From assembly GCF_000503775.1 (NCBI RefSeq), contig NZ_KI629782.1:124001-188000 (forward strand): a DNA stretch of 64,000 nucleotides, read 5' to 3'. Position 1 is the stretch's first letter. The number at the start of each line of letters is the position of its first letter. Below are positions 22,837 through 26,730 of this stretch, one piece after another. The notes beneath the pieces were generated by a model that did not search any database, was not told the origin of the DNA, and saw only the letters and a list, made by a program, of their open reading frames with translations. This stretch comes from Brevibacillus panacihumi W25. GTDB lineage: Bacteria; Bacillota; Bacilli; Brevibacillales; Brevibacillaceae. A program made the translations under genes and the position numbers.

Positions 22837-23718
22837 CTAATAGAATGGAAAATCGTCCTCTTCCCCGACGAACGAGTAAAGCTTCGAACTGATCTCATCA
22901 TAATGCTGCAGCCGCTTTTGCACATTGGCAGCATCATGTACCATCACCCCCTTGATCAGCACATTCAGCAAGGAAAAGAGAGTAGGCATACCACTGGTGG
23001 CAACCGGCTGAGGAGTCGTTACCTTCAGTAGATAGTCGGCAGCCTGGCTGATCGGTGACAGCTCCCCTTCTGTAATGGCCAGAACTTTTGCTCCCAGTGA
23101 TTTTGCAGACTGGACAAGCCCAATCGTCTCAGCCGGATGGCGCGGAAAGGAGATCGCGATCACCAACCACTCCTGATCCCGCTCGGTCAAAAAGTAATCG
23201 GCATTGTCGACGGCCCCGGTGTACAAATGCGTGTTTCCCTTGATCGCATTCAAGGTGGAGAATAGCCATTTTGCCGGGATGTGACACCATCGAAGACCAA
23301 CTACGACAATTCTGTTCGCACGGATAATGCTGTCAATCGCCTGCTGGTAAAGTTCGTAATCGAACTGCTCCAAGCCATGCTGCAAAAAGGCGATATCCGT
23401 CTCGATGACTTGGTGGGCATAGTTATCCCTCGTAACTGCATCCTCGGTGGCGCGGTATTTTTGGATCGGACCTTTTCGTTGATCCACCATCAACAGGGCC
23501 TTTTTAATCTCATCTTGCAGCTCCGAATAGCCGGAATACCCCAAGGAGTGGCAAAAACGAATCACCGTCGCTTCGCTCGTGTTCGTCAGCTCTCCGATTT
23601 TTTTGGCTGTATGGATGGCGATCAGACTAGGCTTGTCGACAGCGACCTTGGAGATGATTTTCTGACTGGCGGTAAGATTGCCAAATTGCTTTCTGATTCG
23701 TTCCTTTACCTGCTCCAT
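22837..23718 (-). CDS. MurR/RpiR family transcriptional regulator
   Basis: 293 residues from the ATG at 23718 (AAGGAG nine bases upstream). N-terminal RpiR HTH ('QKIISKVAVDKPSLIAIHTAKKIGELTNTSEATVIRFCHSLGYSGYSEL') and C-terminal SIS sugar-isomerase fold domain about 130-260 ('IIRANRIVVVGL' ... 'WLVIAISFPRHPAETIGLVQSAKSLGAKVLAITEG'). SIS domains usually bind phosphosugars. It heads the minus-strand run with CapA, serine hydrolase, MFS and ligase, 40 bases before capA, and probably controls that run. Confidence 0.92.
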   Translation of the reverse strand: MEQVKERIRKQFGNLTASQKIISKVAVDKPSLIAIHTAKKIGELTNTSEATVIRFCHSLGYSGYSELQDEIKKALLMVDQRKGPIQKYRATEDAVTRDNYAHQVIETDIAFLQHGLEQFDYELYQQAIDSIIRANRIVVVGLRWCHIPAKWLFSTLNAIKGNTHLYTGAVDNADYFLTERDQEWLVIAISFPRHPAETIGLVQSAKSLGAKVLAITEGELSPISQAADYLLKVTTPQPVATSGMPTLFSLLNVLIKGVMVHDAANVQKRLQHYDEISSKLYSFVGEEDDFPFY

Positions 23719-23755
23719 TTCAGTAGCTCCTTTGTTAAACGGAAAACGTAATTTT

Positions 23756-23790
23756 GTGAATATTATATCTTTTGACACATTTCACTTCAA
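23756..23790 (-). promoter_or_regulatory. Sigma-A promoter and possible operator of the RpiR operon
   Basis: On the minus strand TTGAAG and TATAAT are separated by exactly 17 bases (23790-23762). GTGAA (23756-23760) and TTCAC (23781-23785) flank the -10 as an inverted repeat, a plausible autoregulatory site. Confidence 0.6.
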
Positions 23791-23853
23791 TACACATCAG
23801 AAAATGTAGTAAATCCTTCATTTTGATACTCTGGAAGAGGTGGTCTTGGAATG

Positions 23854-23886
23854 AAAAACCCGCCTTTTCAGATACGAAAAGGCGGG
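23854..23886 (-). terminator. Terminator with no adjacent minus-strand gene
   Basis: CCCGCCTTTTC pairs perfectly with GAAAAGGCGGG around a 6-base loop, followed on the minus strand by TTTTT. The nearest upstream gene on that strand ends at 25111, beyond the plus-strand EamA cassette. It may be the original terminator of the amidohydrolase operon, now separated from it. Confidence 0.7.
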
Positions 23887-23963
23887 AAAGTTCAGTATGT
23901 AGATACTTTTTCAAATCGGTTTGTAGTAAAATAAAATACAGATTTGAAAGGAGAAGAAAGCTA

Positions 23964-24017
23964 ATGATGTATTCACCACTTTTTGAAAATGATGTACCTG
24001 TAATTATTCTCCCTTAA
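23964..24017 (+). CDS. 17-codon leader peptide upstream of the EamA transporter
   Basis: Reads MMYSPLFENDVPVIILP and stops with TAA at 24015-24017. An AAAGGAGAAG ribosome site lies ten bases before the first ATG, as good as that of any gene nearby. The last codon and stop lie inside the left arm of a 10-base stem (24012-24021). The C-terminal Pro-stop is a slow termination context. Position, ribosome site and overlap with competing stems point to a regulatory leader peptide. No experimental precedent for this exact peptide is known to me. Confidence 0.6.
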   Translation: MMYSPLFENDVPVIILP

Positions 24018-24074
24018 CGGAAGAATGATTACGTCTCCGTTAAGGACATACACGAATGTCTATAAAACGGAGGG
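24012..24074 (+). promoter_or_regulatory. Alternative RNA stems controlling eamA translation
   Basis: Arm A (CCTTAACGGA, 24012-24021) pairs perfectly with arm B (TCCGTTAAGG, 24036-24045). Arm B can instead pair, through CTCCGTT (24035-24041), with AACGGAG (24066-24072), the ribosome site of eamA. The two pairings exclude each other, so whether arm A is covered by a ribosome on the leader peptide decides whether the ribosome site is open. Confidence 0.6.
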
Positions 24075-24079
24075 CAGCA

Positions 24080-24979
24080 ATGAAAAATACCTTACTTGGT
24101 TCTTTATATTTATCACTCGCCGCTAGTATCTGGGGCGGAATGTATGTTGTTGTTAAAGTTGTAGTCGATATTGTACCACCACTTGAGTTAGTATGGCTTC
24201 GGTATGTAATTGCTCTTTTAGCATTACTAATTATCGGAGCACTAACAAAACAATCATGGCGTGTCGCGAAACGTGACTGGCTACTCATCATTTTGATTGG
24301 ATTTATTGGGAATACGATTTCAATCGTAACCCAAGAGGTCGGAACGATGCTTTCATCTGCGCAAATGGGAGCCATTATTACATCCACAACACCTGCTTTT
24401 ATGGTCCTGTTTGCACGATTGATCCTTAAAGAAAAAATTACTGCAAAGAAAGCCATTTCTATCGTTTTAGCAACAACTGGTGTGTGTGTTATTGTCGGAA
24501 CTGCTCAAATTGATACCTCTAATCAGCTTGGTGGTATATCCCTGATTGTCGCAGCACTAACTTGGTCACTAATGTCTGTCCTTGTAAAACGTGTACCAGG
24601 CCAATATTCGCAAATTGTCTTAACAAGTTACAGCATCCTTGTAGCCATTGCCTTTCTATCGCCTTTTTCACTTGGGAGATTAACGAAGCTTGATCTTCAA
24701 GCGATCATGCAGCCTTCTATCTGGGGAGGTCTGCTGTACTTGGGGGTCATTTCTACTGCGTGTGGCTTTTTGCTGTGGAATCGAGGCTTACAGAAGCTTA
24801 ATGCTTCTAGTGGAGGATTATTTTTCTTTTTCCAGCCGATAGTTGGTACTTTTTTAGGATGGTTATTGCTAGGTGAACAGATTGGTTTGTCTTTCTGGAT
24901 GGGTACAATATTAATATTTATTGGGGTACTATTAGTCATTCGTAACGAGAAACCCCAGGAAGAAACCGTAAGCGTATAA
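24080..24979 (+). CDS. EamA/DMT family transporter
   Basis: 299 residues from the ATG at 24080 (CGGAGGG upstream). Ten hydrophobic segments in two EamA repeats (about 8-140 and 155-290), e.g. 'SIWGGMYVVVKVVVDIVPPLELVWLRYVIALLAL' and 'GVISTACGFLLWNRGLQKLNASSGGLFFFFQPIVGTFLGWLLLGE'. Family members export amino acids, drugs or other metabolites across the cell membrane. Codon use is clearly more AT-rich than in neighbouring genes, suggesting transfer. It is preceded by a leader peptide and switching stems, so expression is probably induced or repressed at translation. Confidence 0.9.
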   Translation: MKNTLLGSLYLSLAASIWGGMYVVVKVVVDIVPPLELVWLRYVIALLALLIIGALTKQSWRVAKRDWLLIILIGFIGNTISIVTQEVGTMLSSAQMGAIITSTTPAFMVLFARLILKEKITAKKAISIVLATTGVCVIVGTAQIDTSNQLGGISLIVAALTWSLMSVLVKRVPGQYSQIVLTSYSILVAIAFLSPFSLGRLTKLDLQAIMQPSIWGGLLYLGVISTACGFLLWNRGLQKLNASSGGLFFFFQPIVGTFLGWLLLGEQIGLSFWMGTILIFIGVLLVIRNEKPQEETVSV

Positions 24980-25000
24980 ATTAATAGAGAAGCTGACAGA

Positions 25001-25042
25001 AACAGCGACAGTCTTGGATTTTTTTCCTTGACTGCCGCTGTT
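25001..25042 (+). terminator. Terminator after eamA
   Basis: AACAGC-CAGTC pairs with GACTG-GCTGTT across a two-base internal mismatch, with a T-rich loop, followed by TTATTATTT on the plus strand. It lies between the convergent eamA and amidohydrolase genes. Confidence 0.5.
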
Positions 25043-25110
25043 ATTATTTGGTCGGATTAGTCTAAATCGTTATTTTCGCAGAACACGTGGCACAGACGAC
25101 ACTTCTTTTT

Positions 25111-26730
25111 TTATTGTGTACTGAAACTGCTCGCGCTATTGCGCTCGTAACGAATCTCTCCCCCGATGATCGTCATCTCGATATCGGTAGACAAGATTTC
25201 ATCCGGCTCGATCTCCAGGAGGTTTTTGGAATACACGGTCATATCCGCATACTTTCCGCGGCTGATGGTTCCTTTGACCGCTTCTTCGTTGGTTGCCAGC
25301 GCTCCGCCATAGGTAAACAAGCGAAGAGCCTCCTCTACCGTCAGATTTTGTGCGGGGTTGTATCCCTCATGAGCGTCTGCCGGCGCCTTTCTCGTCACCG
25401 CAGCGTGAATCCCCAGCAAAGGTGCCAATGGTTCCACGGGAGCATCGGAACCGCCAGCACACATAATGCCAGCCTCCAGCATGTTTTTCCAGACGTAGGT
25501 TTGCGACGCCCGCTCGGCACCGATCCGATCGGCTACCCAGGGGAAATCGCCGACGACAAATCGCGGCTGAATATCGGCCACAATCGATGGACTCTTCAGG
25601 CGCTCCAGCAAATCAGGGCGAAGCAATGACGTGTGAATCATGCGATCCCGATACGCGACTGGCGGGAACTGCTCCAAGGTGTCCAGCACCATCTCCAAAG
25701 CCTCGTCGCCAATGGTATGCACCGCAATCGGCATCTGGGCATCCCGTGCTTCTTTGAACAGCTCGTAGAGGGTTTGCGCATCATGAATGTAACTGCCGAC
25801 GTTATCCGGATCATCGGTGTATGGCGCGGATAAATAGGCTGTCCGACCGCCAAAGCTGCCGTCTGCAAAGATTTTTACGGCACCAATCTGCAGCGTTTCA
25901 TTCCCGAATCCTGCATACATGCCCCGTTCCACCAAACGTTTGACATGCGGATAGTAAATGAGCAGATTGCAACGCAAGCCCAGCTTTTCCCCGTTCAGCA
26001 GCTCGTCGTACAACTGCCAGGTCTGATCCAGTCCTCCGAAGGTCCGCAGATCCTCAGTATGGACACTGGTTAACCCGCCTTTCATCGCCAGCTGGATCGC
26101 TTGTCTCAACAGATCCTTAAACTGTTGGTAGGTTGGTTCCGGGATATGCTTGGTTACAATGTCTGCTGCCGTTTCTAACAGAAGGCCTGTCGGTTTTCTT
26201 GTTTCCGGATCCAGAACAACCGTTCCTCCAGATGGAATTTCCATCTCTTCCGTATAGCCTGCCAACTCCAAGGCCTTGCTGTTCACCAATGTGACATGGC
26301 CGCAAACGCGCGATAAAAATACAGGGCAATGGGGTGCCACTTGATCCAATTCCTCGATCGTAGGCAACCCACCGTCGGCAAAGCGGTTTTCATCCCATCC
26401 CCTGCCTTGCAGCCACTCATTTGGAGCCGTCTGCTCAGCCCGTGACTGAATCGCTTGCAAAAGCTCCTGCCTGGAGGTGATCCCCGTCAGATCGAGGTTC
26501 ATCAAATTCGTGGCGATAGAAGACAGATGCAGGTGACTGTCAATCAAACCCGGTGTCACCATTTTTCCTTCCAAATCTCGTACAATCGCGTCGGGGCTTC
26601 CCCATTGCAGGAGCATTTCCTGATGACTGCCCAAATCAATGATTTTCCCTTCTTGAACGACTACGGCTTCCACGACGGGGTGGGATGGATCGAATGTATA
26701 AAACTTGCCATTGGTATAAATCGTTGTCAT
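25111..26730 (-). CDS. Amidohydrolase (YtcJ-like)
   Basis: 539 residues, the length of the YtcJ/amidohydrolase_3 group. Metal site His-x-His in 'MVTPGLIDSHLHLSS' (about 58-72), 'FADGSFGGRTAYLSAPYTDDPD', 'AVHTIGDEALEMVLDTLE' and the acid metal ligand in 'MCAGGSDAPVEPLAPLLGIHAAV'. It should hydrolyse a C-N bond in a small molecule; the substrate is not predictable. Its ATG overlaps the stop of the upstream deaminase-like gene by four bases. End of the operon that starts with the amidinotransferase-family gene. Confidence 0.88.
   Translation of the reverse strand: MTTIYTNGKFYTFDPSHPVVEAVVVQEGKIIDLGSHQEMLLQWGSPDAIVRDLEGKMVTPGLIDSHLHLSSIATNLMNLDLTGITSRQELLQAIQSRAEQTAPNEWLQGRGWDENRFADGGLPTIEELDQVAPHCPVFLSRVCGHVTLVNSKALELAGYTEEMEIPSGGTVVLDPETRKPTGLLLETAADIVTKHIPEPTYQQFKDLLRQAIQLAMKGGLTSVHTEDLRTFGGLDQTWQLYDELLNGEKLGLRCNLLIYYPHVKRLVERGMYAGFGNETLQIGAVKIFADGSFGGRTAYLSAPYTDDPDNVGSYIHDAQTLYELFKEARDAQMPIAVHTIGDEALEMVLDTLEQFPPVAYRDRMIHTSLLRPDLLERLKSPSIVADIQPRFVVGDFPWVADRIGAERASQTYVWKNMLEAGIMCAGGSDAPVEPLAPLLGIHAAVTRKAPADAHEGYNPAQNLTVEEALRLFTYGGALATNEEAVKGTISRGKYADMTVYSKNLLEIEPDEILSTDIEMTIIGGEIRYERNSASSFSTQ

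Follow-up and report, generated by a model that had tools for sequence, protein, structure and literature searches.

The leader and eamA in the window

The window, a stretch of 64,000 nucleotides from Brevibacillus panacihumi W25, carries on its + strand the gene eamA (24080-24979), which encodes an EamA/DMT-family exporter of 299 aa (Pfam EamA, 1.8e-49). To our knowledge, EamA/DMT exporters are abundant and mostly lack a known substrate. No NCBIfam equivalog scored above cut-off for this protein, the nearest family being a carboxylate/amino acid/amine transporter family well under its cut-off, and a sequence search returned no relative of solved structure. The gene is a single gene with a conserved start at 24080, a GGAGG at 24069-24073 and another in-frame ATG at 24056. 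Its neighbors, named from reading their open reading frames, are a divergent gene for an RpiR-like regulator (22837-23778) and, on the opposite strand, an amidohydrolase-like gene (25111-26730).

A short leader ORF (23964-24017, + strand) lies before eamA and has its own ribosome-binding site, AAAGGAG (23947-23953, + strand), read from the sequence and beginning about 130 bases upstream of the gene. The ORF comprises 17 codons, MMYSPLFENDVPVIILP plus stop, with its start ATG at 23964, a second in-frame ATG at 23967 and a TAA at 24015-24017, and 62 bases separate this stop from eamA. Its core codons, F-E-N-D-V-P, occupy 23982-23999, with the core Pro at 23997-23999. Directly 5' of the leader is a weak sigma-70-like promoter match (23908-23937, + strand; 9/12 matches), and such sites show no excess in 23780-25080 (3 versus a shuffle mean of 3.5). 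On the minus strand, a strong 12-bp hairpin followed by a T run (23859-23886) adjoins the leader and lies 5' of the start of the RpiR-like gene; it could act as a terminator of minus-strand transcription arriving from the eamA side.

The leader RNA holds several competing pairings, all on the + strand. Arm A (CCTTAACGGA, 24012-24021), which contains the leader stop, pairs perfectly over 10 bp with TCCGTTAAGG (24036-24045) in arm B (24035-24045), and CTCCGTT of arm B (24035-24041) can instead pair over 7 bp with AACGGAG (24066-24072) in arm D (24066-24073), which overlaps the eamA ribosome-binding site. The 17-codon frame with its own ribosome site, the stop codon inside the A:B stem and the alternative pairing of B over the eamA site had all been named in the original prediction and can be read directly in the sequence. 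Overlooked there were a 12-bp helix between arm P (23999-24010), made of the last leader codons, and arm Q (24022-24033), the stretch that separates A and B, and a small hairpin nested within B:D (24044-24061; 24044-24049 with 24056-24061). Because the arms are interleaved in the order P-A-Q-B, P:Q and A:B should be mutually exclusive. The minimum-energy fold of the whole leader consists of P:Q, B:D and the nested hairpin (z = -2.56; 3/200 shuffles equally stable), so the eamA ribosome site is predicted to be buried by default.

Leader peptide and RNA arms among homologues

The leader peptide is conserved among close homologues of eamA. Our sample of 110 loci, which are close homologues and not a random sample, comprised the best 80 relatives from a genome collection (best segment 61-90% identical) and 30 from a whole-genome search (45-100% identical). 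The closest match with a species name among the best 80 is Brevibacillus fluminis, with a protein 90% identical; the 30 include the window's own locus (L081), and one of them, L083, duplicates the gene of L001. The core (F/Y)-E-x-D-(V/Q/T)-P stands before eamA in 110/110 loci (108 parsed by script, L049 and L066 by eye), with no locus failing a search pattern that admitted only those residues and required E, D and P. Residues and codons were counted in 107 parsed loci, excluding L083. E, D and P occur in all 107, F in 105 and V in 103, and the x position is held by N (75), H (8), Q (8), C (7), L (5) and others. The core Pro codon is CCA in 49, CCT in 38, CCC in 18 and CCG in 2, and the core Glu codon is GAA in 98 and GAG in 9. 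Since E, D and P are kept while their codons change synonymously, conservation acts on the amino acids. The core is also found in homologues of 45-51% identity with different RNA arm sequences.

The distance from the leader start to the core is short and nearly fixed, with 10-11 residues before the core Pro in 93/107 loci according to our start calls, some of the longer of which are probably over-long. The starts were chosen with a loose Shine-Dalgarno pattern in the bases before them, and the homologue ribosome sites were left uncounted. The core lies 3-6 residues from the stop in 105/107 loci, and the tail residues vary in kind, the last one included. This variability in number and kind implies that the terminal Pro-stop, at which the ribosome had been proposed to pause, is not the conserved element of the leader; D-x-P is. 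At one locus (L066:2948-3004), the leader is fused in frame to the eamA start and the sequence from P through to the ribosome site is absent, which may represent a natural deletion (a possible constitutive mutant) or an assembly fault.

Covariation was assessed in three alignments: A1 (32/42 group-1 loci) and A2 (40/41 group-2 loci), from which near-identical rows had been removed, and A3 (10 loci of the window's own genus/family, from 19 of the 24 remaining loci, with L087-L095 unaligned). For P:Q, 85.8% of cells are paired in A1 (slid versions at most 54.7%), with double changes in 7/12 pairs, a number that 13/500 shuffles reach, and covariation that 0/500 shuffles reach. The same helix in A2 is paired in 82.5% of cells (slid versions at most 58.3%), with double changes in 6/11 pairs (14/500 shuffles), covariation reached by 16/500 shuffles and pair types not above shuffles (323/500). 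B:D together with the nested helix is 96.2% paired in A2, with covariation reached by 8/500 shuffles; the counterpart of the nested hairpin, helix 2 of A2, is 89.9% paired. A:B is paired in 91.0% of cells in A2 and 89.8% in A3 (slid versions at most 60.2% and 55.7%, respectively) and is almost invariant in A1. The expectation that a conserved leader and covarying stems would accompany eamA homologues was thus borne out for the peptide and for P:Q but not for A:B, whose covariation is not above shuffles in A2 (313/500) and not clearly so in A3 (67/500). RNAalifold, run unaided, returned A:B on A1 and B:D on A2, and P:Q on neither; on A3 it returned B:D and a hairpin formed by the final leader codons, 5/15 pairs showing double changes.

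All arms change between lineages, from AACGGAG/CTCCGTT in the window to CCGGGAGG/CCTCCCGG in some rows of A3, the other rows having close variants. When arms were swapped among 16 lineages, own A:B combinations had a mean energy of -20.5 kcal/mol compared to -14.8 kcal/mol for swapped ones, a comparison that includes one locus almost without an A arm (L086) and one with a poor A arm (L087). The corresponding values for B:D were -14.7 and -12.6 kcal/mol, a weak test that says little because any anti-site pairs with most ribosome sites. The support for A:B comes from pairing well above the slid controls and from the cross-lineage arm swaps. In 102/107 loci, most of the ribosome-site region pairs with upstream sequence, and in only 66/107 does most of P pair with bases 3' of the stop when folding is unconstrained (criterion, at least 6 of 18 bases). 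Taken across the loci, comparison shows the conservation of the peptide, the covariation of P:Q and the existence of mutually exclusive pairings.

Predicted switch and candidate triggers

The stall position and the ON and OFF states are predictions from folding. A ribosome footprint, from 14 bases before to 15 bases after the first base of the P-site codon, was barred from pairing, and the accessibility of the eamA ribosome site was read out. Without a ribosome, mean accessibility over 107 loci was 0.086; it was 0.26, 0.32 and 0.24 when the P site held the core's D, V or P, respectively, and 0.11 and 0.09 three and five codons past the core Pro. Shuffling the stretch from the core to the ribosome site gave a flat profile of 0.22-0.25. 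A gain of more than 0.1 at V was seen in 79/107 real loci versus 35/214 shuffled ones. The best codon was D, V or P in 73/107 loci and lay elsewhere in 22, and no codon gained 0.1 in 12; default accessibility was at least 0.2 in 16/107 loci. Three other footprints, applied to every second locus (54), gave peaks at P, D and D, i.e., the peak codon shifts by one or two with the choice of footprint. Overall, the occlusion folds argue for a switch that is ON with a ribosome halted at D-x-P and OFF otherwise.

Accessibility in the window rose from 0.09 to 0.39 with V in the P site. In the absence of a ribosome, the best fold consisted of P:Q and B:D. Placing V or P in the P site broke B:D in favor of A:B, and B:D returned once the P site reached the last sense codon. 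In the V fold, two ribosome-site bases are, in our reading, still weakly paired elsewhere. Stalled-state accessibility reaches only about 0.3 because A:B and B:D are nearly equal in energy. As a yardstick, the same folding of ermC from pE194 raised the accessibility of the start codon from 0.00 to 0.44 and 0.54 from V8-I9 on, close to I9, the stall site of the ermC leader. This yardstick is broad, the start codon being open over most later codons, and the Shine-Dalgarno measure was uninformative for it.

We consider the leader quite likely to be an erm/cat-like translational attenuator in which a nascent-peptide stall turns eamA ON, and the kind of switch first proposed, a leader-peptide translational switch of the erm/cat type, is upheld by the peptide kept in all loci and the covarying P:Q. 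By default, P would pair with Q and keep arm A in the loop, while B would pair with D and bury the eamA ribosome site. Upon induction, the ribosome would halt on a nascent ...F-E-x-D-V chain of 10-11 residues, with Pro at or next to the A site; by covering P it would free A and Q, and A:B would form, break B:D and turn eamA ON. Once the stall is relieved, the ribosome would proceed to the stop and the RNA would close again. The stall would depend on the amino-acid sequence of the nascent chain, and its trigger would most likely be a small molecule in the peptidyl-transferase center or the upper exit tunnel, probably a ribosome-binding antibiotic or a toxic compound expelled by the pump. From these data we infer the stalling, the inducer and the substrate of the exporter, and the trigger is far less certain than the switch and its ON logic.

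Other readings of the switch itself fit the data poorly. The logic first proposed, in which a ribosome stalled at the Pro-stop covers A, frees B and closes eamA while A:B keeps the gene open by default, draws on a perfect 10-bp A:B stem that includes the stop codon, on the ability of B to pair with the ribosome site and on the A:B structure that RNAalifold gives for A1. Yet P:Q covaries and keeps A in its loop, the tail and last residue of the leader are variable, and the ribosome site is predicted to be closed by default and similarly closed five codons past the core or at the last sense codon of the window, i.e., near the stop, so that we regard this logic as very improbable. The accompanying proviso, which allowed for an inversion by additional pairings upstream, proved apt, as the P:Q helix inverts the logic. 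That the RNA binds a ligand directly, with the small ORF incidental, is hardly credible. EamA genes do occur under orphan ykkC subtype 2d RNAs according to PMC7266159, but Rfam 15, which may or may not hold a separate 2d model, gave no match in the window at the gathering threshold and none in 23900-24120 at E up to 1, A1-A3 contain by eye no conserved unpaired core beyond the arms and the leader, and the conserved block is a coding core with synonymous changes. Transcription attenuation of the BmrB or MsrDL type was rejected because no + strand terminator-like hairpin lies between the leader and eamA; the sole + strand terminator-like site in 23780-25080 is inside eamA, which makes translational control likelier than transcriptional control. 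An amino-acid attenuator of the trp/ilv type was likewise rejected, as the leaders contain no run of codons for one amino acid and a single Pro at the site.

Two further explanations accept the switch and the ON logic and compete over the trigger only. Slow decoding at D-x-P, through scarce charged tRNA-Pro or limited EF-P activity, would make the leader a reporter of translation stress or amino-acid supply. Pro incorporation is slow, and Pro occupies the predicted stall position in 107/107 parsed loci; however, the site has a lone Pro and no single-amino-acid run, all four Pro codons are used, and the upstream F, E and D are kept as amino acids, which leaves this trigger unlikely. The conserved amino acids, the short, near-fixed chain and the use of any Pro codon instead make a nascent chain reacting to a bound compound likelier than tRNA shortage. 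Such a compound could also be an endogenous metabolite, e.g., cysteine or O-acetylserine, sensed in the tunnel in the manner of TnaC or SpeFL, with the exporter relieving its excess. The distant NCBIfam resemblance to carboxylate/amino acid/amine transporters and the cysteine-synthase-like gene seen nearby by eye in 5 of the best 80 loci, all Paenibacillus, are consistent with this idea, but the other neighbors are hardly common to the loci. The metabolite-sensing arrest peptides known to us, moreover, need longer nascent chains than the 10-11 residues available here, and we hold a metabolite trigger to be possible but rather doubtful. The conserved leader peptide is encoded ahead of this family of pump genes in many soil bacteria, and stalling of the ribosome by it upon some molecule, switching the pump on, is the most likely account.

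Distribution, mobility and known leader systems

The leader is patchily distributed among EamA genes. Among 12 homologous loci from other classes of the phylum, the leader is present in three (L154, L155 and L157) and was not found in nine, and a homologue on a Selenomonas plasmid showed no leader; the pump can therefore do without it. L157 has by eye a divergent core, P-L-N-E-C-D-V-P, which suggests that the aromatic core residue is replaceable while E, D and P stay. The W25 genome holds 12 EamA matches, and of the four with places listed, two have the core upstream according to the pattern, namely the window gene and a 48% identical paralogue. A second EamA subfamily, about 21% identical to that of the window and matched in 43/299 genomes, has the leader in two of 30 loci read (L167 and L168, which are the genes of L133 and L134, respectively) and lacks it in 28. 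The leader appears to have been captured by this second subfamily and has probably moved between EamA genes; its patchy presence indicates that it is not a general property of them. At L134 the gap from leader to gene is only 35 bases, with none of the arms A, B and Q visible, so the leader of L134/L168 is either a decayed switch or has another mode of action. To look for the leader before other kinds of gene, we also read 30 of the loci matching the core pattern, some of them already among the 110. By eye, a short ORF containing the core precedes an EamA-like gene in 20 of them, six of which were compared by BLAST; four short ORFs (L121, L125, L129 and L137) have no such gene downstream and look like chance, and in the remaining six the core is not in a short ORF. 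The reversed pattern also matches, and a pattern match alone therefore means little.

Leader and eamA have probably been transferred horizontally as a cassette. The GC content of 500-base windows starting at 23500-24750, which cover both, is 35-43% versus 48-58% in the flanks, close relatives occur in other families, and leader and gene together are found on plasmids of Priestia megaterium, among them pBM500 of strain QM B1551, and of Bacillus badius. For the best 80 loci, up to 3 kb on each side were searched for ORFs of at least 70 codons, which were clustered by BLAST; the commonest neighbor clusters occur in 5 loci only, all Paenibacillus. Low GC, relatives in other families and on plasmids, and unshared neighbors together point to transfer of leader plus gene, and, with neighbor clusters in at most 5 loci, the gene neighborhood gives no clear lead to the inducer. 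In five Paenibacillus loci (L024, L027, L029, L035 and L064), genes resembling a cysteine synthase and an AraC-type regulator were seen by eye near eamA, a weak hint of sulfur amino-acid export. No phage or virus relatives were found.

The fullest reading of these results, to which we give about even weight for and against, is a new family of arrest peptides in which (F/Y)-E-x-D-(V/Q/T)-P, after 10-11 residues, senses a specific small molecule that binds the ribosome and thereby induces the EamA exporter responsible for removing it, the whole being a portable, horizontally moving sensor-plus-pump cassette of Bacilli and a few other Bacillota. A stalling leader would be a built-in assay, as the compound that stalls F-E-x-D-V-P is probably the substrate of the pump or its companion; if this holds, the leader could serve to identify both the natural inducer and the compound that the pump exports. 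It would also add a motif, conserved across many Bacilli while the RNA switch was rewritten, to the few known nascent chains with which ribosomes sense small molecules.

Among known systems, the leader most resembles ErmCL-ermC of pE194. In both, a short leader carries a ribosome site of its own, alternative helices can form and the initiation region is buried by default; in each, an elongation stall after about 9-11 residues releases the gene (predicted here), and the distance from leader stop to gene is 59 bases in ermC and 62 here. As in the erm and cat leaders, a peptide motif is conserved where a stalled ribosome is predicted to open the gene, D, V or P being the best codon in most loci as described above. 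Differences from these leaders are that the gene encodes an EamA exporter and that arm A is held within the P:Q loop, and we know of no erm or cat leader that the F-E-x-D-V-P core resembles. TnaC and SpeFL likewise control their downstream genes through conserved nascent-chain residues, a likeness to the conserved core before eamA. As described in PMC10314930, release is blocked at termination in TnaC and SpeFL, whereas the stop predicted here mostly falls 3-6 codons earlier, on a chain of 10-11 residues; MsrDL also stalls at its own stop codon, in contrast to the predicted stall within the ORF, and ErmBL, ErmCL and ErmDL stall during elongation. For the trigger, this comparison offers a lead and no proof. 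BmrB-bmrCD and MsrDL share with our locus a leader peptide before a drug exporter or a resistance ABC-F gene in Gram-positives, but they act, according to PMC4191407 and PMC10314930, by transcription attenuation, and the present leader is followed by no terminator-like hairpin before its gene. The uORFC-6-1 motif before hflX, likewise a leader ORF predicted in Bacillales by comparative analysis and accompanied by covarying RNA (PMC8632094), has another peptide (Arg-Leu-Arg) and another gene. The word EamA does not occur in the main text, as far as available, of the comparative RNA surveys PMC8632094, PMC11109978 and PMC6429828, and a literature search of titles and abstract beginnings, mostly outside subscription papers and excluding bioRxiv, gave no report of an EamA/DMT leader peptide, arrest peptide, stalling or uORF among the matches listed. 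As far as our search reached, the leader family is new and belongs to an old kind of mechanism.
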